From: Actinomycetes bacterium
GTDB taxonomy: Bacteria; Actinomycetota; Acidimicrobiia; Acidimicrobiales; Palsa-688
Assembly (NCBI GenBank): GCA_021821705.1
Contig: JAKACE010000021.1
Span: 1 to 12,093, forward strand
Direction of reading: 5' to 3'
Length of the DNA: 12,093 bases
The translations under genes were made by a program, and so were the position numbers. This document shows, piece by piece, positions 1-11,159 of this stretch. Every line of letters starts with the position of its first letter. Position 1 is the stretch's first letter. The notes below the pieces were generated by a model. It was not told where the DNA came from, made no database searches, and worked only from the letters and a program-made list of their open reading frames with translations.

Positions 1-3000
1 CACCGGGAGCTTGGGCGCATGGTCGCTGGGCAGCACCGGCCCCAGCAGTTCCCAGGGGTCGGCGTAGGCGTTGGGGTAGGTCTGGGCCGGGTCCTGGGCA
101 GAGTTGTACCACTTGCTCTGGTAGATGTAGCCGTCCCGCACCACCTTGTAGCCCGTCTCGTAGCCTGCCATGGGGGTCCACGGGGGGTAGAGGGCGTTCG
201 CCGGGTTGGTATCGGGCCGGGCCACCGTTATGCCACCGGCGACAGGTGTACCGGCCAAGACCCGGCCCAGGTGGCCGAACGCCGCCGAGAAGCCCTGCGC
301 GGCCTGGTACGTGCCGCTGCACGTGTTGGACAGGACGCCTGTAACGCCGTAACCCTGGCCGCACTGGACGTCCCGGTTGAGGGACCACATCGACAGCCGG
401 CCGAGCCCGTTGCTGGTGGCGAAAGCCACCAGCCGGGTGGCATCGGCCGCGGTGAACACCTCGCCCCGCACGTCGTTCTGCCCGATCATTACCGTCACCC
501 CGAGCCGCTGCCAGACCTGCTCGGGCGAGAGGTCGGCCCCGAAGCGGCGCAGGTCCGCCTGCAGCTGGCTGTCGGCGGCCAACGCCGCGCTGCGTACCAG
601 GGTGAACATCGTGCGCCCGGCCCCGGGGGGCACCGGGAAGTCCATGGCCATGATGTTGACGCCGCTCAAGCTGACCCTGTGGCGCAACATGGTGTTCACC
701 ACTGACATCGCCTCGGGGGACAGCCCCCTCGCAGTCGTGGGGAGTGTCAGCCACACCTGCAGCGTGCGGTGCTCCGCCCGGTACAAGCGCTGCGCGGCGG
801 CAATCGCAGCCGCCTGCCGCTCCACCGCCACCGTGCCCGCCAGTGCGGCGCCCTCTATGTCGAAGTCGGCGATGCTCACCTTGTAATGGGCCAGGACCGT
901 GGTGTACGCCTTCGCCAGGGCAGCGGGCCGTGTGCACGCGACCGCCAGGTCCGTACCGTTGCGGCCGCCGAAGGAGATGACCGCGCCCACGCCCTCCTGG
1001 CCCAGTTGGGCGACACGGGGGCCGAGGGCAAGTGCCTCGTCCGCCTGGGCAAGGCTGTAGTAGCCACCCCAACTGGGCGTACAGCTCGTCCGGCCACGGG
1101 CCACGACGAAGCCGAGCACGACCTGGCGGGCAGGCTCCATCGCCGGGTCCTGGAACTGGTACGTGGGTGCCAGCGTGGCGTCCACGTAGGGAGCGAACCA
1201 GGTGCCGCCCTTGACCGCGAAAGCGGACTGCACGGCCGGCGGCACCTTGTACACGCCCAGATAGGCGATCCCGCCCACCACGGCGGCCGCCACCAGCGCC
1301 CTGGTGAGCGAAAGCCGTGGCCGGTGCTTGTCCTCCTCCAGGGACAGGTCGAGGTCACCCGGGCCGGCGGCCATGACCGTCACCGGCCCCCGTCCGCCAC
1401 GTGGACGGCCGCCACCGGCACTGCCCGTGGACGCCGGCGGGCGGCGCACACCCTCGGGCAGCTCCAGGCGCTCGGGGCGGCCGTAGAAGTATCCCTGGCC
1501 CAGGGAGACCCCGAGCCCGGTCAACAGGTCCCGCTGCTCGGGCGTCTCGACGCCCGTCGCCACCACCGAGGAGCCGACCTCCCTGGCCATCCTCACCAGT
1601 TGGGCCAGGTGCACCTGGCGGGCCCCGTCCTCCGCCAGGCCGTCGACCACCCGGCGGGCGAGCTTGACGTACGCCGGCCTCAGCTCGAGCATCACAGCGA
1701 TCGTCTTGTGGCCGAGCCCCGCCTGGTCCAGTACCACCAGGGCCTTGGGCGGGAGAGCCTTCCCGATCTCCCTCAGTTCGTCGGAGAGGTCACTGCTCGA
1801 CGGCTCGACGACCTCGACCAGCACCGGCCTATCCAGCGCAGCCAGAGCGCGCCTGAGGTCGTGGTCGGCGTGCAGCAGCCGGGGAGACACCTTGACCGCC
1901 AGGGAGCCCTCCTTGGGCAGGTACGGGGCCTCAGCGAGGGCGGCCCGCGCCAGGCGGCCCTCCAGGACCGTCCCCTGACCGGCACCCACTGCCTCTGCCA
2001 ACCAGCGCTCCACCGGGGTTCCGTCGTGGAAGCGCGACAGGGCCTCGTAGCCGATGACACTGCCCGTCGACAGCTCCACCAGGGGCTGGAAGAGCGTGTC
2101 GAACTCGCCCTCCTCGGGCAGCTGCCAGGACGAGCCGGTCGGTGACCCTCCGTGGCTGGACCGGCTGGCGAGCAGGTGCTGGCGCTCAGTGGTGCTCGGG
2201 GTGCCCAGGTCGAGCACCGAACGCCAGTCGACCATGGCCGGTGCGAGCTGGGGCGACCGCCTCCAGAACGGGTGCCGCCCACCGCGCTGGGGCTTCAACA
2301 GGGCGGACTTGAGGTGGGTGAGGGTATCGATGACCGAGTTGCCCAGCCCTATGAAGGCAACGATGGCGTAGGTCAACAGGACGACGTTGAGGCCGGCGTA
2401 GGCCATGTCCTCCCACAGCCCGTGCCGGTAGGACACAAAACACGTGTAGGCAGCCAGCAACAGGAGCATGTACGGCGTGACCACGAAGATGAGCGGTGTC
2501 ACCGTACGGTTGCGGACCTTGGGGGTGCGGATGAAGGCGCCCTTGGAAGCCGTGATGGCCTGTACCAGGGTGGCCGCCGCACCGGCGAGGTTTATGGGGA
2601 CCAGGAGCAGGTTGAAGCCGTAGACGCGGGCGATGTCGAGCCGCTTGTAGCCGCAGTAGCGGAGGTCCATCGTCATGGCCCAGAAGTACGGCAGCGCAGT
2701 GAGCCCGAGGAGGGGGCTGATGAGAGTGGCGTTGAAGGGGAAGGCCAGGAGCACCAGGAGGCTGAGGGAGCTCCAGGTGATGGAGGCCATGTAGTTCCAA
2801 CGCAGGAACTTCTCCACGAAGCGGACCCTCCCGCTGCGCTCACGGGCGGCCCTGGCGCTCAGGCGGATCTTGGGGACGATCAGCATGCCGCCGGTACCCC
2901 AGCGCTGGCGCTGGATGCACAGCGAACCGAAGTCCGGGGGCGTGGCGCTGTAGCTCAGCCTTTCGGGGACGTTGAAGAGCTTCCAGCCCTTCACCCTCAT

Positions 3001-4542
3001 GTCGAGAGTGGAGTCGGTGTCCTCGATGACCGTGCGGTCCCGGATATAGGTCCGCACCTCCCAGTCGCCCAGGTACGAGGTCTCGACGATCTCGTCCAGC
3101 GCCTTCTTGCGTATGACGGCGTTGGCGCCGACCCAGAAGGTGGCGTCGTAGTACGTGAGCCCCTGGTGGACCATGTGCTGGACATCGGTGGTGGCCCCGG
3201 CCACCCGTTCGAGCCGGGTCGCCGACCCGGGGAAGGCGCTGTAGGGCGTCTGGGCCACGGCGTCGCCCCGGTGCTCCTGCTGCTCGAGCGTGTGGACCAG
3301 GCGGAGGCAGTACTCGGGCAGGAGTACGCTGTCGGCGTCCAGGGTCATCACGTAGTCCGGGTCGCGGATCATCTGCGCCTCCGGGTCACCGGGCTCACCC
3401 GGGACCAGCGCCGGCCCGGCGACGGTCTGCACCGTGCGGTGGGCGCGGCCCATCAGGCCGATGTAACTGTTGAGGTTCATGGCCTTGTTGGGCTCGTGGG
3501 AGAGCGAGACGTACCGCTTGCGCTGGAAGCTGCTGACATTGGCTGTGAAGGTCCACACCAGCCGGCGGTACAGCTGTCGTGCCCTCTCTACCGGTAGCGT
3601 GGCCCCCTCCTCGACGGCCTGGGCCACGGCGTCGGCAACTGTGCCGAGGTCGAGCGCCAGGCGGCGCAGTACGTGGTTGGCGAGGAAGGCGTCAGTGTGG
3701 TCGACGAGGTCCTGGCTCGCAGCCAGGTTCTCCAGCCAGGCGGAGGCGGCACGGTACTCGGCGACCAGGCCTGACAGGACGGTGCCGCCTACCGGACCGG
3801 AAACCGGCGCCGAGGCTTCGAAACGCGCCGCTGCTTCACCGAACCGGGCCGAAGGCCACGAGAGCAGCTCCTCGATCTCGCCCGGGAGCGCCCGGGCTGC
3901 TTCGAGCAGCTGCCTCGCCCGAGGGTCCCGCGGCGCCACCGGGTCGTCGATCAGCAGGACAACGTCAAGGTCCGGGTACTCCTGGAGCGCAACCGAGAGC
4001 AGGGTGTTGCGCACCACCCGAGCCTCCTCCTGGTAGGAGGGGACGAGCGCTGTCATGGTGGGTTGCGTCTGCTCGTAGAAGTCGTCGAGCATGGCCCGGG
4101 TCGCCCGCCGGTGGCTTTTTGCCCTGTAGAAGAAGCCGAGCCGGGCCAGCAGGTAGGCGAGGCTGGAGGCAGACAACAGGGTGACCACCAGCAGGTAGAC
4201 GACCGCCTCGGCTCGGGACGCGCTGCTGCGCTGGTAGGGGTTGAACAGGTCCTCGAACAGCCAGTAGACCACGTAGGCCGCCCAGGACAGCACGGTGCCC
4301 ACGATGAAGAGGCGGGCCAGCCCGATGCGCCTGTCCGTGACGGCAGGGGGGACAACGGGCAGGGGCTGTGTCCTCCGGTCATGGCCCAACTGCCTACGCC
4401 TTCGCCTGGACCGCACGTGCCTCCCGCTCCGGCCACCGTCCGAAGGCCCGGCCTTCCGGGGCGCCTGTGCCTCTCCTCCTGTGAACACCGTCCCGGCGCC
4501 ATGGCGGGCGCCGGGACGGGAGCCGTCCAGTGTCTTTTCCAT
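1..4542 (-). CDS. Polysaccharide synthase fusion: GT2 - EAL - GH18 - CBM5/12 membrane protein (3' end outside window)
   Basis: One stop-free frame of 1514 codons, continuing past the left edge. Residues 1-74 are a polar, Arg-rich cytoplasmic leader (five consecutive Arg at about 46-50). Membrane segments are near 76-96 and 114-134. The GT2 domain (about 160-570) has the first Asp pair D199-D200, DAD at 402-404, ED at 507-508 (TED position) and QRQRW at 544-548, the signature of processive synthases that polymerise UDP-sugars and export the chain. Segments near 590-612, 640-660, 682-704 and 713-735 follow. An EAL domain covers about 808-1025 (EALSR 833-837, QGYFYGRP 1016-1023) but lacks several metal ligands. 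After a Gly/Arg/Pro linker, segment 1078-1098 leads to an outside GH18 domain (about 1112-1425; DFDIE 1226-1230, MDF 1300-1302, SMWSLNRD about 1384-1391) and a CBM5/12-like module (about 1453-1501). I infer a c-di-GMP-responsive synthase of an N-acetylglucosamine-type or other beta-glycan with built-in processing. The ATG at 4542 is the first in frame; TTG at 4545 or GTG at 4488 are alternatives. Domain calls are strong; polymer identity is unknown. Confidence 0.93.
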   Translation of the reverse strand, partial: MEKTLDGSRPGARHGAGTVFTGGEAQAPRKAGPSDGGRSGRHVRSRRRRRQLGHDRRTQPLPVVPPAVTDRRIGLARLFIVGTVLSWAAYVVYWLFEDLFNPYQRSSASRAEAVVYLLVVTLLSASSLAYLLARLGFFYRAKSHRRATRAMLDDFYEQTQPTMTALVPSYQEEARVVRNTLLSVALQEYPDLDVVLLIDDPVAPRDPRARQLLEAARALPGEIEELLSWPSARFGEAAARFEASAPVSGPVGGTVLSGLVAEYRAASAWLENLAASQDLVDHTDAFLANHVLRRLALDLGTVADAVAQAVEEGATLPVERARQLYRRLVWTFTANVSSFQRKRYVSLSHEPNKAMNLNSYIGLMGRAHRTVQTVAGPALVPGEPGDPEAQMIRDPDYVMTLDADSVLLPEYCLRLVHTLEQQEHRGDAVAQTPYSAFPGSATRLERVAGATTDVQHMVHQGLTYYDATFWVGANAVIRKKALDEIVETSYLGDWEVRTYIRDRTVIEDTDSTLDMRVKGWKLFNVPERLSYSATPPDFGSLCIQRQRWGTGGMLIVPKIRLSARAARERSGRVRFVEKFLRWNYMASITWSSLSLLVLLAFPFNATLISPLLGLTALPYFWAMTMDLRYCGYKRLDIARVYGFNLLLVPINLAGAAATLVQAITASKGAFIRTPKVRNRTVTPLIFVVTPYMLLLLAAYTCFVSYRHGLWEDMAYAGLNVVLLTYAIVAFIGLGNSVIDTLTHLKSALLKPQRGGRHPFWRRSPQLAPAMVDWRSVLDLGTPSTTERQHLLASRSSHGGSPTGSSWQLPEEGEFDTLFQPLVELSTGSVIGYEALSRFHDGTPVERWLAEAVGAGQGTVLEGRLARAALAEAPYLPKEGSLAVKVSPRLLHADHDLRRALAALDRPVLVEVVEPSSSDLSDELREIGKALPPKALVVLDQAGLGHKTIAVMLELRPAYVKLARRVVDGLAEDGARQVHLAQLVRMAREVGSSVVATGVETPEQRDLLTGLGVSLGQGYFYGRPERLELPEGVRRPPASTGSAGGGRPRGGRGPVTVMAAGPGDLDLSLEEDKHRPRLSLTRALVAAAVVGGIAYLGVYKVPPAVQSAFAVKGGTWFAPYVDATLAPTYQFQDPAMEPARQVVLGFVVARGRTSCTPSWGGYYSLAQADEALALGPRVAQLGQEGVGAVISFGGRNGTDLAVACTRPAALAKAYTTVLAHYKVSIADFDIEGAALAGTVAVERQAAAIAAAQRLYRAEHRTLQVWLTLPTTARGLSPEAMSVVNTMLRHRVSLSGVNIMAMDFPVPPGAGRTMFTLVRSAALAADSQLQADLRRFGADLSPEQVWQRLGVTVMIGQNDVRGEVFTAADATRLVAFATSNGLGRLSMWSLNRDVQCGQGYGVTGVLSNTCSGTYQAAQGFSAAFGHLGRVLAGTPVAGGITVARPDTNPANALYPPWTPMAGYETGYKVVRDGYIYQSKWYNSAQDPAQTYPNAYADPWELLGPVLPSDHAPKLPV

Positions 4543-4811: not shown

Positions 4812-6605
4812 TCACCGTGGTGGCGGCGGACAGCCAGCCGTCCTCCGGGTGGCCGTCATGCCGGTACCCCTACCGGCAAAGCACGAAATCGACGAAGGCT
4901 GCGAAGCGGCCCTGGCGGAGCCCCTTCGCGCGGGCCATCGGTGCCAGTCCGCCGTTTGGGGGAGCAGCAGGCCGCGTGCGGACGGCTCCGGCTCGGCAAG
5001 GCCCGGGTACCCGGCTCGAGCGCTTGAGTTCGCAGCCGGTACCGTTGCCGGGGCAGCGGGCTTCCCTGTGGTCGCAGGGCGCCCCTGGACGGGCACGAAG
5101 TGCCGCTCGCGTACGAGGAGGAAGGCCCCGAGCGCACCGAGCCCGACGACTGCGGCACCGATGACCACGATCTCGTCCATGGATGATGCAAAGGCGCGCC
5201 CGGCAGCGACCCCGACGGCGTGGCGAGCCAACGGGCCGCCCCGGGCCGACGCCAAGGCCGCGGAGCGCCCACCGGCCGCAACCACCGCAGCCAGCTTGGC
5301 GGACGCCCCCGGGAGTATGCGTCCCAGGTCGGAGGAGACCCCGGCCTGGAAGGCCGCCCCCAGAGCGGCGATACCCGTGGCCAGGCCCGCCACCCGCATG
5401 GTGTTGGAGATCCCCGAAGCCATGCCGGCACGGGCCGGCTGCACGACCCCCAGGGCGATCTTGGCGATGGAGGGGTTGGCCACGCCGACCCCGGTACCTG
5501 TGAGCACGAGCCCCGGCAGCAACGCCGTCCAACCCGACGCCCCGGTGAGCACGTCCATGGCCAGCAACCCTCCGGCGCAGATGGTCAGCCCGGCGCCGAG
5601 CACGGCCCCCGCCGGGAGGCGCTCGGTGAGCCGTCGCGTTGCCAAGGGGACGAGGAAGGTCAGAACGGTCGCCGGGAGGAGGCGCAGCCCACCTGCGAAC
5701 GGTGAATAGCCGAGGTCGTTCTGGATGTACAGCGTGAGGTAGGGCAAGAGCCCGAACATGCCCATACCGATGGCGAAAGTGCCCAGAGAGACCCCGCAGA
5801 ACCCGGCGTTGCGGAACAACGAGAGGTCGAACATGGGCCGTCGCTGCCTGAGCTCGGCCACGATGAACGCAGCCAACAGCAGGGGCGACCCGGCGGAACA
5901 ACCGACGATCAGGGAACTGCCCCAACCATCGGCAGCCCCGCGCAGGAGCGCGAAGTTGAGGAGGAACAGGGCGCCCGAGAAGCTGACGAGCCCCAGGACG
6001 TCGGCACTGCGGGCCTCCGGGTCACGCACGTTCACCAGCAGAGGGACGGCCATGAAGACGGTGGCGGCGCCGATCGGTATGTTCACGAAGAAGATCCAGC
6101 GCCACCCGATCCCTGAGGTGATGGCACCACCGATCAGGGGCCCGATGGCCACCGCACCTCCGACCGTCGCCCCCCAGGCGCTGATGGCCTTGGCCCGCTC
6201 CTGACCGTGGAACTCCTGGCCGATGAGCGCCAGTGAGGTGGCGAACATGGCCGCTCCGCCCACTCCCTGCAGCGCTCGGGCCAGGTTGAGGAACATCGCC
6301 CCGGTGGCGAGCCCGCACAAGGCGGAGGCGAAGGTGAACACCCCGACACCGGCGATGAAGATCCGTTTGCGGCCCACCCGGTCAGATAGAGAGCCGCAGG
6401 TCAGGATCAGCGCCGACAGTGGCAGGGCGTAGGCCGATATGACCCACTGCAGGTCGGTGAACGAGGCGCGGAACTGCCGCTGGATGGTCGGCAGGGCGAC
6501 CTGGACGATGGTCAGGTCCACCAGCAACATGAACGTCGCCCCGCAGATGGCCACCAGCCCCAGCCAGCGGCGGTCGCGGGCACTTCCGTCGGCGGCGGTG
6601 CTCAT
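4812..6605 (-). CDS. MFS drug/H+ antiporter, DHA2 (EmrB/QacA) type, 14 membrane segments
   Basis: A 597-residue protein predicted to export hydrophobic or cationic compounds across the cytoplasmic membrane using the proton gradient. It shows the DHA2 N-terminal motif (D30 then TIVQVALP, segment 1), motif A GSLSDRVGRK at 71-80 between segments 2 and 3, the antiporter motif C region at about 144-162 (GPLIGG), and WRWIFFVNIPIG at 168-179, all hallmarks of 14-segment exporters. Hydrophobic segments continue to about 498. Residues 504-597 form an unusual Pro/Ala/Arg-rich tail absent from typical members of about 480-520 residues, possibly an extension created by loss of the ancestral stop. The frame is open upstream to 7007, but ATG 6605 places the first helix at the expected distance and the upstream residues are not membrane-like. 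No strong Shine-Dalgarno is visible. The substrate is unknown; a link to the polysaccharide gene is not shown. Confidence 0.92.
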   Translation of the reverse strand: MSTAADGSARDRRWLGLVAICGATFMLLVDLTIVQVALPTIQRQFRASFTDLQWVISAYALPLSALILTCGSLSDRVGRKRIFIAGVGVFTFASALCGLATGAMFLNLARALQGVGGAAMFATSLALIGQEFHGQERAKAISAWGATVGGAVAIGPLIGGAITSGIGWRWIFFVNIPIGAATVFMAVPLLVNVRDPEARSADVLGLVSFSGALFLLNFALLRGAADGWGSSLIVGCSAGSPLLLAAFIVAELRQRRPMFDLSLFRNAGFCGVSLGTFAIGMGMFGLLPYLTLYIQNDLGYSPFAGGLRLLPATVLTFLVPLATRRLTERLPAGAVLGAGLTICAGGLLAMDVLTGASGWTALLPGLVLTGTGVGVANPSIAKIALGVVQPARAGMASGISNTMRVAGLATGIAALGAAFQAGVSSDLGRILPGASAKLAAVVAAGGRSAALASARGGPLARHAVGVAAGRAFASSMDEIVVIGAAVVGLGALGAFLLVRERHFVPVQGRPATTGKPAAPATVPAANSSARAGYPGLAEPEPSARGLLLPQTADWHRWPARRGSARAASQPSSISCFAGRGTGMTATRRTAGCPPPPR

Positions 6606-6612
6606 GGGCCGG

Positions 6613-7215
6613 ATGCTACAGGTTGCGGTAGCGCTTGACGCCACCGGCCCGGCCCTGCCGGGCGGGCGGCCCTCTCCACCGGGCCTGCCACCAGGGTCAG
6701 GCCGGCGGCATGTCGTGACCGACGGTCCGGTCCACGCAGCCGGGCATGTCGCCCCGGTGACTGCCACGGGGGTGCACGGCGTGGCCAACCTCACCGTGTG
6801 GTGCATCGACAGCGACAGGCCGCGCTTCAGTGCTGCCGTGAGCGGAGCGATCGGGGACCAGGGACATGCCCCGGCCGTGCCGGCCGACGGCGAGGTCGGC
6901 ACGAGCCGTTCCCATGACCCGCAGCTCGAGCTCCGCCATGGGACGTTCCGCATCGACATCAGCGAGCTGGCGAGCAAGCTCATGACTGCAGCCAGACGCG
7001 GGCCCACTTGCCCATCGACCTGCTCGGACTACTTCCACGGCCCCGAGGGCGACTGTGCCCGTGGTGGCCGGCTCCGGCACCGGCGCCCGTCAAGGCACCA
7101 GGGGCCGGCTCTCCCTGAGCGTTGCAGGTAACGAGGTGCAGAAGCCGCCACCGTGCACCGCCCCTCTGGCGGCCCAGTACCTGCTACTGACCATCTCGGG
7201 CCAGGTAGCGCACCG
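6613..7215 (+). pseudogene. Frameshifted relic of a small beta-rich, probably secreted protein of unknown function
   Basis: A plus-strand reading with strongly GC-biased third positions runs from about 6715 to 7050 (includes NLTVWCID, ELRHGTFRIDIS and a Cys pair around CPSTC). It then appears to continue one frame over from about 7040-7055 (VPVVAGSGTGARQGTRG, then LLLTISG near 7180-7200). Joined, the two parts resemble a small actinobacterial domain I recall with the order GTF-DI, TC, PVVAGSGTGAYRG, FISG; this rests on memory, not on a search. The frame change equals one extra base. The start is unclear: ATG 6613 is the first in-frame ATG after the MFS start, but no signal peptide follows, suggesting 5' loss. 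The 3' end is also unclear, because no stop follows the domain before an inverted repeat. It is either a decayed gene or a sequencing error. Confidence 0.4.
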
Positions 7216-7625: not shown

Positions 7626-9722
7626 TCAGCTCGCCGCCTGGGCGTCCTGCAGGTCGATGGCAGGGCCAGCCGCCCTCTCGAGGCGCTGCTCCATCGCCTG
7701 CTGGCCGACAGCGGTCGGGTGGAACGGCAGGTGGACGGCGGCACTCAGGGCGTAGAACCACGGCGAGGGGCTGCAGACATCGTGACCACTGAAGGGGGCC
7801 ACGTAGTGGGCATAACCCCCGACGGCGCCGACGGCGGCGGCGACGGTGAGGTTCAGGCGGGGGACGAGCGCTGCGAGAGAGCGGAGGTTAGCGCGGTTGA
7901 TCTTGAAAAAGTCGGTGCGGTTGAGGGCGGGGCATGAGCGCGTGACCGACGACGGGAGCGGGTTGGGATAACCGAGCGCGTAGAGCTGGGCGCGCGGAGC
8001 TTTGGCGTGGACAAGTCGGAGGAGCGACTCGACCTCAGCCCCCGTCTCCTCGTAAGCGGCGGGACCTGCGTCACGGGCGATTGCGGCTTCGCACGCCGGT
8101 GGGACGGCACCGACGATCACGCAGGTGCGCAGCAAGCCGAACAGATCCAGCGTATCCCCGCCAGCGGTGAGCACCACGACCCGAAGACGCTTGGTGAGCT
8201 TGGGGACCTGCGTCTGCACCATCTGCTCGACCGAGGCGCCTGAGCAGGCCAGGAACTGCACCTGCGGGTCGTACAGGTAGGCATAGGAGCTGGTGGACTG
8301 CACGCAACCGGCAGGGCTGCCAGGGACGTACGGCGCAATCTGCCCCGATGTGAACGAATCACCGATGGCGGCCACGAGAGGCCCGAAGCAACCCCCGGAG
8401 GTGCTGGCGGTGCCCAGCTGCGGCACGGTCCAGCTGCGGCGCCCGGCATGGAGAACTGCGGTGTTCGCCGGACCGGCCAGGTTGCAGTACTCCGCGACCG
8501 ACCCGCTCGGGCCCCGGGGCACCCACGGCAGCGAGCCGTCCGTCGGGCCCGGGTACGCCCACTTCGCGTCGTACTCCTCGACGACACCGTTGCCCAGCAC
8601 GAACGTCCTTGTCGAGTATGGGCCCCGGCCCGGGTAGGCCTTGCCTCCGCAGGTGCCACCCGTCTTGCACGCCGTCGTCCAGGGCCAGGGGGTACCCGGG
8701 TGGTGCGCGCTGTCCGTCCCGTCACCCCAGTCGACCGCCCCCAGCTCGCAGATGGCCTCCGCGATCCAGGAACAGTCAGAGAAGCCCGGTGGATAGTAGC
8801 CGCCGCCGGCCAGACCCCCGACGTACGGGGCGCTCGGGCCTGAGCCGGTGCCGAGGTTGCCCTGCGGCTGGAGCCACTGCTCCTTGGGGGCCGACTGGGT
8901 GCCGAAGGACAGGTCCAGGCCGGTTGCCACCGCTTGCGGGTCGGCCACCAGGGCCCGCTCGAGGTTGACCCCGGAACATGCGTCAGGTGGGTTGAGGGCC
9001 GTGCCGGGCAGCGGCTGGGGGTTCTGCTCCACCACGGCGGAGCCGTGCAGCCCCGAGTCGTCCGCCAGCCACCGGTAGGCGTAGGCAGGGTCGGCGTCGG
9101 CGCCGGTCTCGGGCAGGTCGGGGCTCGCGTCGTCGTACGGATAGCCGGCCCCCGCCCTCACCAGCACGGCGTCGGTGAAGTCCGCGCAATTGGAACCGGC
9201 CAGACCTGGTCCGCGGGCGCCGGTGCCGAACGGCCCGGAGCGGCCCTGGCCGCCAGACGAGGCCAGGGCATAGCTCGGGGGTGCGGACATCACCCGGGTG
9301 ACCATCGCCCAGGCGGCGTTCCATCCCGCCCGGCTCACGCGATAGGCCGCGCGCCATGTCCATGGGTGGCCCTCCTCATCGAGCACCGCCCCGGTGCCGT
9401 GCAGCAGGTCATTGCTGGCCGGCCCGAAGCCAAATGTACCGCTCCGTACCTCGGGGCACGTTTCGAAGGTGCAGGAGCTCCCTGCTGGCCGCTCGACCTC
9501 CAGCAGCTGCACCCACTCGGTGCCGGTAAGACCGAGGCGGGCGGCCACCGGCCCGGCGGAGGACCCGTTGACATCGGTGTACACCACGGCGTAGTACTCC
9601 TGCCCGGCCGCAGCCGGCGCTGCACTACCGGCGGCCGCCGGCACCGCGGCGAGGAGCACCGCTGCGACCGCCATCAGCGCAACCCCCAGCCCGCGTCGTA
9701 GCCCTCCGCAAATCGTCACCAC
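7626..9722 (-). CDS. Secreted SGNH-type esterase/lipase-like protein with large unassigned N-terminal region
   Basis: A 698-residue protein starting with a signal peptide (Arg-containing n-region, hydrophobic core about 11-30, Ala-rich cleavage area about 30-40), so exported. The C-terminal part, about 445-690, is an SGNH hydrolase: block I GDSFTSG at 454-460 with nucleophile Ser456, ACSGA (block II-like) shortly after, a block III-like GGDTLD with D523 where the family usually has Asn, and HPTAVG with His668. The Asp normally three residues before the His is Leu665; Streptomyces scabies-type esterases also lack it and use a backbone carbonyl. Residues about 40-440 are Cys-, Gly- and Trp-rich, with no family I recognise. 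The start is well placed: AGGAGGGG at 9733-9726 lies 3 bases before GTG 9722, and a second GTG at 9719 is equally plausible. The likely role is hydrolysis of an ester or acyl group outside the cell; the substrate is unknown and activity uncertain given the Asn change. Confidence 0.88.
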   Translation of the reverse strand: MVTICGGLRRGLGVALMAVAAVLLAAVPAAAGSAAPAAAGQEYYAVVYTDVNGSSAGPVAARLGLTGTEWVQLLEVERPAGSSCTFETCPEVRSGTFGFGPASNDLLHGTGAVLDEEGHPWTWRAAYRVSRAGWNAAWAMVTRVMSAPPSYALASSGGQGRSGPFGTGARGPGLAGSNCADFTDAVLVRAGAGYPYDDASPDLPETGADADPAYAYRWLADDSGLHGSAVVEQNPQPLPGTALNPPDACSGVNLERALVADPQAVATGLDLSFGTQSAPKEQWLQPQGNLGTGSGPSAPYVGGLAGGGYYPPGFSDCSWIAEAICELGAVDWGDGTDSAHHPGTPWPWTTACKTGGTCGGKAYPGRGPYSTRTFVLGNGVVEEYDAKWAYPGPTDGSLPWVPRGPSGSVAEYCNLAGPANTAVLHAGRRSWTVPQLGTASTSGGCFGPLVAAIGDSFTSGQIAPYVPGSPAGCVQSTSSYAYLYDPQVQFLACSGASVEQMVQTQVPKLTKRLRVVVLTAGGDTLDLFGLLRTCVIVGAVPPACEAAIARDAGPAAYEETGAEVESLLRLVHAKAPRAQLYALGYPNPLPSSVTRSCPALNRTDFFKINRANLRSLAALVPRLNLTVAAAVGAVGGYAHYVAPFSGHDVCSPSPWFYALSAAVHLPFHPTAVGQQAMEQRLERAAGPAIDLQDAQAAS

Positions 9723-10691: not shown

Positions 10692-10701
10692 TCACGACCA
10701 C
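10688..10701. repeat. Perfect palindrome over the pdaD stop codon
   Basis: GTGGTC and GACCAC flank a central AC dinucleotide, giving a 6-bp perfect stem that includes the TGA stop of the arginine decarboxylase gene. Loop size is only 2 bases and no T-tract follows, so a terminator is doubtful; it may be a protein site or chance. Confidence 0.4.
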
Positions 10702-11159
10702 CCTTCCGTTTGATATTTAGCCGCAACCAAGGCACATACGGGCTGGGTCTCGCAGACGGCTCCGACTATGTGGCTCCCGAGATCGCCAAACGAGCGAGCT
10801 CTCATTTGCACCATCGCAGTCAGCGTGCTCTCGATAAGGCGTTCGACCACGTGCCGACTGGCGCCGTAATGTTCGACAAAAAAACCCCGGCCATCTTCGG
10901 CCTGGGCCCAGCCCAATCCCGCCCAGGCTTCGAGGCCGGGATCCGTCTCGTGCTGAGCAGCCATGACGACGTACAGCCGATGGCCCCACTCAATGTCGTT
11001 GTCAACGGGGACATCCCGAACGATGGACGCTCCCGGTGGGATCACGGAACTGAGGGGGACCAAATTGTAGTTCCCGATACCGGCGGCCAATAGCGCCGAG
11101 TCGAAGGCCGCCAGCTTCGTGGGCCCGCTCCCAGTGCCCGAAGTGATGCGGATTTCCAC
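10692..11159 (-). CDS. pdaD: Pyruvoyl-dependent arginine decarboxylase
   Basis: A 155-residue protein expected to convert arginine to agmatine and CO2, the entry to polyamine synthesis or an acid-consuming arginine pathway. The proenzyme cleaves itself at the Ser37-Ser38 bond in VPLSSVIPPG, and Ser38 becomes the pyruvoyl group. The preceding GIGNYNL (27-33) puts Asn32 six residues before Ser38, and GFFVEH has Glu96 matching the conserved catalytic Glu of this family. TSGTGSGPT near the N-terminus is also typical. Length is at the short end of the family. The start is GTG 11159 with AGGGGG six bases upstream and a good promoter. Third codon positions carry clearly more A/T (AAA TAT CAA near the end) than in the other genes, suggesting acquisition by transfer. 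No arginine, agmatine or polyamine genes are nearby, so the role in the cell is open. Confidence 0.93.
   Translation of the reverse strand: MEIRITSGTGSGPTKLAAFDSALLAAGIGNYNLVPLSSVIPPGASIVRDVPVDNDIEWGHRLYVVMAAQHETDPGLEAWAGLGWAQAEDGRGFFVEHYGASRHVVERLIESTLTAMVQMRARSFGDLGSHIVGAVCETQPVCALVAAKYQTEGWS

Follow-up and report, generated by a model that had tools for sequence, protein, structure and literature searches.

A GT2 polysaccharide synthase joined to a degenerate EAL domain and a chitinase-like GH18 domain in an actinobacterial genome

Why would a bacterium place a polysaccharide synthase, an EAL domain and a chitinase-like domain on a single polypeptide? The question is raised by a gene at one end of contig JAKACE010000021.1 (assembly GCA_021821705.1, order Acidimicrobiales), whose 12,093 nucleotides are referred to here as the window. 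The gene occupies 1..4542 of the minus strand and encodes, in order, a GT2 synthase, an EAL domain, a transmembrane helix, a GH18 domain and the start of a carbohydrate-binding (CBM) region; its 3' end is missing, since the contig stops at window position 1. On balance, its sequence features favor a one-piece, signal-gated exopolysaccharide machine, in which a degenerate EAL domain would serve as the switch for cyclic di-GMP (c-di-GMP).

One open frame and its three domains

The source genome (G000) is a 61% complete metagenome-assembled genome of 522 contigs, of which the window is one (C520). On the minus strand, the frame from 4545 to 1 runs through 1515 codons without a stop and out at the contig end, in agreement with an earlier note on this DNA that had read at least 1514 continuous codons; base composition alone would yield 1514 stop-free codons with a chance of about 1.5e-13. 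The likeliest start is the ATG at 4542, where a 90%-identical homologue, P0002, also begins in the alignment; P0002 has a full length of 1574 amino acids. A second locus in the same genome (L002, contig C296) encodes a 79% identical paralogue that also has GT2, EAL and GH18 and runs into a contig end on either side. The claim that GT2, EAL and GH18 share one polypeptide is borne out by Pfam for the first two and by phmmer for the third, and of the motifs named in the earlier note, DAD (residue 403), ED (508), QRQRW (545), EALSR and DFDIE (1227) were found.

The synthase matches Pfam Glyco_trans_2_3 over the cut-off (119.6 bits) and carries the DxD, ED and QxxRW signatures of processive GT2 enzymes. 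Motif searches located these as DADS at residues 403-406 (3328..3339, minus strand, as for every feature of this gene), EDTDS at residues 508-512 (3010..3024) and QRQRW at residues 545-549 (2899..2913). Across 164 family rows DxD is present in 162, ED in 160 and QRxRW in 160, the four rows without the latter being cut or frame-broken frames. Hydropathy places helices within residues 74-133 and 586-739, flanking the GT2 domain, and a DWRSVL motif past the last synthase helix (2212..2229) is common to forms with and without EAL. The synthase was modelled separately, the structural matches of the whole-protein model having been filled by the EAL domain, and it is predicted to fold as a BcsA-type membrane channel. 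Membership in the BcsA cellulose synthases (TIGR03030, 63 bits against a cut-off of 699.1) and in PgaC/IcaA (TIGR03937, 43.1 against 422.3) was rejected.

The chitinase-like part spans residues 1112-1424 (274..1212), which phmmer aligned with the solved chitinases PDB 9buf ('Exochitinase 1', 1.1e-48) and 2dsk (1.9e-20). This homology, together with the catalytic DxDxE motif DFDIE at residues 1227-1231 (853..867, motif search), places the domain in GH18. Pfam reported no GH18 in the window protein, and PF00704 exceeded its cut-off only in the relative L054 (34.5 bits against 29.6). SMWSLNRD, which had been proposed alongside DFDIE as a GH18 motif, is taken here as a conserved stretch of this protein family and not as a signature. 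For another relative, L025, a dead GH18 was ruled out by the presence of NFDVE with its glutamate kept.

A single membrane helix with an LSxxR start, called by hydropathy at residues 1078-1096 (1258..1314), resembles the anchor of separate GH18 proteins. Since helices surround GT2 and one precedes GH18, the face of the synthase is expected, together with EAL, in the cytoplasm, and GH18 on the outer side. Behind GH18 lies a first CBM5/12-like repeat (residues ~1448-1506; 28..204), recognized by eye from its likeness to the CBM5_12 of P0002. The CBM5/12 claimed earlier is therefore present as a similar first repeat and not as a Pfam-recognized module: Pfam reported none over the window protein, and the match in P0002 (residues 1517-1560, 27.1 bits against a cut-off of 26.2) falls past the window's contig end. 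Because GH18 enzymes depend on an N-acetyl group where they cleave, and the accompanying modules belong to the chitin-binding type, the polymer probably contains beta-1,4-linked N-acetylglucosamine.

Residues kept and lost in the EAL domain

The EAL domain (PF00563, 100.6 bits against a gathering score of 31.3) lies between the synthase and the GH18 anchor at residues 805-1028 (1462..2133), as placed by Pfam, alignments and a structure match. In RocR, Q161 and R179 bind substrate, while E175, N233, E265, D295, D296 and E352 are metal ligands (PMC7911125). Fourteen degenerate EAL rows were compared with 103 others, comprising 24 split GT2-linked EALs and 79 more, the latter including those of L041 and L066, both probably GT2-linked. 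RocR numbers are placed on the window protein by what we take to be motif equivalence, aided by an alignment to BlrP1.

The signature YEALSRF (2029..2049) retains ExLxR, while three metal positions have changed. Residue 885 (1891..1893), at N233, is lysine where asparagine stands in 103/103 other EALs; residue 941 (1723..1725), at D296, is glutamine against aspartate in 101/103; and residue 997 (1555..1557), at E352, is threonine against glutamate in 102/103. All 14 degenerate rows have lysine at N233, and none keeps D296 or E352; metal ligands E175 and E265 are retained. Q820, E834, L836, R838, K961, E1000 and Q1017 are kept in 14/14, the last three presumably as part of the nucleotide pocket. 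Q820 and R838 correspond to Q161 and R179, the cited substrate contacts of RocR (PMC7911125).

Among 24 sites conserved to at least 93%, N233, D296 and E352 alone are lost in at least 90% of degenerate rows (hypergeometric p 0.010; 0.005 to 0.010 over four thresholds), a value that is descriptive only because these rows share ancestry. The split GT2-linked EALs keep N233 in 24/24, D295 in 22/24, D296 in 23/24 and E352 in 23/24. D318 (RocR numbering) is glycine in 19 of 38 GT2-linked EALs, the split ones among them (L037-L102) keeping their metal ligands. The window EAL thus lacks the full set of six metal ligands of an active phosphodiesterase and has the sequence pattern of a degenerate receptor, with ExLxR and pocket residues kept and catalytic residues lost. 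Of the second-messenger domain proposed earlier, the EAL itself stands, and because three of six metal ligands are lost it is likelier a receptor than a phosphodiesterase.

Ratios of nonsynonymous to synonymous substitution (dN/dS) between the window and G002 are 0.056 for EAL, 0.076 for the synthase, 0.166 for GH18 and 0.23-0.26 for the linkers; against the C296 paralogue they are 0.139 for EAL and 0.136 for the synthase. All three domains are under constraint. The best reading of these patterns is that EAL was disabled selectively and would act as a non-hydrolytic c-di-GMP receptor.

Relatives, gene arrangements and the order of events

Within the 120 homologues listed of 664 found (P0002-P0121), GT2, EAL and GH18 occur together in eight (P0002-P0009, of which P0009 is without the N-terminal part), and the other 112 have GT2 and GH18, none with EAL; the complete set is the rarer state. 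The synthase recurs at E < 1e-200 in 7/61 related genomes, the source genome included, all among the 32 of the window's family. In maps of open reading frames the three domains are fused in G000, G002, G018 and G022, and also in G028, where the frame breaks within GH18; the arrangement is tandem in G031 and divergent in G024. The search for a conserved order suggested by the earlier note is thereby answered by P0002-P0009, G002, G018 and G022, and the actinobacterial host it proposed agrees with relatives deposited as Acidimicrobiaceae. Automated JGI names of P0005 and P0006 already combine EAL and synthase.

A scan of GTDB genomes with an EAL profile, from which the best 80 of 353 confirmed stretches were kept, found the same GT2 upstream of EAL in 27 (in L041 in another frame). 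GH18 follows in line in three of these (L034, L059 and, with a frame break, L035), stands in tandem in one (L036) and is a separate divergent gene in 21, with hosts including Actinoplanes, Paractinoplanes, Winogradskya, Planosporangium, Dactylosporangium and an Ilumatobacteraceae metagenome-assembled genome; two contigs stop before any GH18 would be visible. The remaining 53 list neither GT2 nor GH18 within the stretch. The break in L035, the fused gene of fen_671, falls in the GH18 part at about position 6290. In L036 the frames overlap, a GTG that could start GH18 lying five bases before the TGA of GT2-EAL, in what appears to be a pre-fusion arrangement. Most separate GH18 proteins examined have their own helix, several with an RLSxxR-like start, like the fused protein; in that of L121 hydropathy called no helix.

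An even draw of 396 genomes from the phylum gave matches at 1e-60 in eight, the source genome included. GT2 adjoins GH18 with no EAL in the GT2 frame in G326, G150 and G288, a frame-broken GT2-EAL is divergent from GH18 in G139, and G151, G225 and G410 have GT2 with no GH18 match at 1e-60. Because relatives carry the parts as adjacent genes, synthase, EAL and GH18 belong together, in keeping with the proposal that the joined parts form a unit. Nor are the parts always separate genes, which would have spoken against that proposal: fused, tandem and divergent forms all exist.

Duplicates and near-copies were removed before trees were built; P0002, P0004, P0009 and P0086 fall outside the GT2 tree rows through the duplicate or length filter. 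With distant GT2s as root, EAL-free GT2s, on long rows, appear to branch first (support 80; 95/89 in a second tree), followed by split GT2-EAL forms. A 24-row clade (100/99) holds all fused and tandem degenerate-EAL forms plus an EAL-free GT2-GH18 clade nested among EAL carriers (11 rows, 100/99; 22 rows, 99 with wider sampling). Fused GT2-EAL-GH18 rows group at 88/77 only. One gain and one loss of EAL is the simplest reading, and GH18 may have been joined on in one event or in two. The 12 degenerate rows of the EAL tree group together (96). With a midpoint root, the smallest group holding all 29 GT2-linked EALs has 31 rows (support 85), the two extra being L041, a frame-broken GT2-EAL locus, and L066, cut upstream by a contig end; a single origin of GT2-linked EALs is likely. 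The arrangements can be ordered in a series: GT2 next to GH18, GT2-EAL divergent from GH18 with ligands kept, GT2-EAL overlapping GH18 in tandem, fused GT2-EAL-GH18, and fused GT2-GH18 without EAL.

Inspection of Pfam results, without statistics, for 19 proteins from eight loci (6/19 being the loci's own GT2 or GH18 genes, or else a neighbor with CBM2/GH18) revealed no wider shared cluster, bar a GGDEF-EAL gene (L125:3139-5706) adjoining the GT2/GH18 pair of G326. Convergent genes with GH18 similarity lie beside fused genes at L129:9932-11581 (with CBM2) and L035:7512-9137. Elsewhere in the window, all on the minus strand, 4812-7007 encodes a DHA2-type efflux transporter of the major facilitator superfamily (PF07690, 160.8 bits; TIGR00711, 229.7 against a cut-off of 230.2), whose listed start is probably too early; 7626-9722 a 698-residue protein whose N-terminus resembles a secretion signal and which ends in a GDSL lipase-like domain (PF13472, 38.3 bits); and 10692-11159 a pyruvoyl-dependent arginine decarboxylase (PF01862, 1.3e-28).

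A proposed mechanism, its rivals and its known counterparts

As its motifs and fold suggest, the BcsA-like GT2 would polymerize a sugar nucleotide in the membrane and push the chain out. The cytoplasmic EAL would bind c-di-GMP without cutting it, thereby switching or opening the synthase, and the extra helix would place GH18 outside, where the emerging chain would most likely be cut, trimmed or released. BcsZ and PgaB offer a comparison, as they cut or trim their own polymers. A c-di-GMP signal is plausible in the host because its genome holds 19 GGDEF matches and six relatives hold 10 to 36. More tentative, and rather improbable when taken as a whole, is the fuller version of a chitin-like-polymer synthase with its own chitinase on one chain, gated by c-di-GMP through an EAL turned metal-free ligand sensor that was later lost in the largest descendant lineage; in that sensor the fixed asparagine-to-lysine change (14/14 rows) would set a lysine amine in place of a metal ion.

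The three lost ligands would also suit a folded scaffold that has given up contact with c-di-GMP and instead holds partners or spaces the synthase from GH18, and inactive domains can work via protein contact alone (PMC10333796). Such a role seems unlikely, as Q820 and R838, matching RocR Q161 and R179 (PMC7911125), and ExLxR, the motif described in the c-di-GMP-binding proteins FimX and LapD (PMC12564702), are kept in 14/14. Still less probable is a vestigial domain in the course of being lost, the sister lineage already lacking it. While the EAL-free clade does sit among EAL carriers and, over larger distances, constraint on EAL is weaker than on the synthase, a vestige is disfavored by its low dN/dS against the near relative, below synthase and linkers, by its near parity with the synthase against C296, and by near-complete losses that hit metal ligands. 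That EAL still degrades c-di-GMP as a trigger phosphodiesterase is very improbable: enzymes of this kind are known (PMC5052742) and the 24 split relatives keep N233, D295, D296 and E352 almost throughout, yet the window protein is without three of the RocR metal ligands (PMC7911125).

A modest chance is given to a GH18 that digests foreign chitin at the cell surface, merely co-anchored with a synthase of an unrelated polymer, its nearest solved relatives being chitinases and convergent GH18-like genes adjoining some fused genes. Against this, GH18 stands beside or fused to the same GT2 across distant genera in several orientations, and GT2 distances track those of GH18 (r 0.95 over 48 loci, 0.96 over 28 split loci, 0/2000 permutations), though shared ancestry alone can yield such a correlation and accounts for much of it. 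Five duplicate or partial loci were left out of this comparison, and L022 and L035, which represent a single frame-broken fused gene of the same genome, were counted as split. An assembly join or frameshift, to which a fragmented, incomplete genome and a gene stopping at a contig end might point, has next to no probability and was rejected, since the same order is intact in independent full-length copies, recurs at the cut C296 locus and shows constraint in every domain.

Several observations weigh against the signal-gated machine itself. GT2-GH18 proteins of the sister lineage do without EAL, which is thus dispensable for the synthase-GH18 unit, and GH18 could act on outside chitin. The substrate is not decidable from the synthase fold, cellulose and hyaluronan synthases ranking above chitin synthases. 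Losses in degenerate EALs extend beyond the three ligands: D295 is aspartate in 6/14 and glutamate in 8/14, P845 is kept in a fraction of only 0.21 and L1008 in 0.57, and F986 is also lost at an 80% threshold. Structure does not tell active from inactive EALs, and when the window is compared with Acidimicrobiaceae bacterium bog_536, constraint is weakest on EAL (dN/dS 0.319; GH18 0.271, synthase 0.161).

Known systems offer counterparts to each part of the proposed machine. BcsA-PilZ with BcsZ is alike in its processive GT2, membrane channel fold and dedicated hydrolase, but the position past the last channel helix that PilZ holds in BcsA is taken here by the degenerate EAL, and BcsZ is a separate GH8 hydrolase where the window protein has a fused GH18. 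PgaB, PelA and YdaL-type hydrolases are linked to synthases and likewise serve a GT2 product, as separate genes of different GH families. An argument that EAL replaces PilZ, from the absence of the latter, was dropped: PilZ occurs in 4/6 family genomes, the source genome not having been searched. NfrB of E. coli is a GT2 synthase with a C-terminal c-di-GMP-binding MshEN, instead of EAL, after its membrane helices, and no hydrolase domain is described in the passages cited (PMC8669469). Because BcsA-PilZ and NfrB-MshEN are GT2 synthases with c-di-GMP modules, the kind is already known, and the EAL version would be a variant with putative binding, product and regulation. FimX and LapD are described as keeping ExLxR and c-di-GMP binding, FimX without phosphodiesterase activity (PMC12564702; PMC10333796). 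The window EAL resembles these receptors in its fold, its kept ExLxR and its predicted loss of catalysis, and differs in being fused to a synthase. FimX and LapD also carry other domains, absent here.

Also close are GT2-GH18-CBM5 proteins of Microbispora and Actinoallomurus, homologous throughout synthase and GH18 (~60% identity over the best segment) but without EAL and named 'glycosyltransferase family 2 protein'. Actinoplanes-type GT2-EAL with divergent GH18 has the same three domains at the same locus, but in two genes, and its EALs keep N233, D295, D296 and E352 in 22-24 of 24 rows, with D318 mostly glycine. Among the matches listed from openly licensed PMC papers none dealt with GT2-EAL or GT2-EAL-GH18, which is not proof of absence.

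The window protein is a rarer form of an apparently uncharacterized actinobacterial synthase-hydrolase pair, a system spread over several actinobacterial groups and testable in culturable genera. EAL would be a built-in switch of a GT2 synthase, where the fused modules in the cited literature are PilZ and MshEN. With its steps from adjacent to overlapping to fused genes, and an enzyme site disabled and then lost, the series allows a direct test of how a signal receptor evolved, and it also prompts one to ask whether some actinobacteria make a chitin-like matrix.
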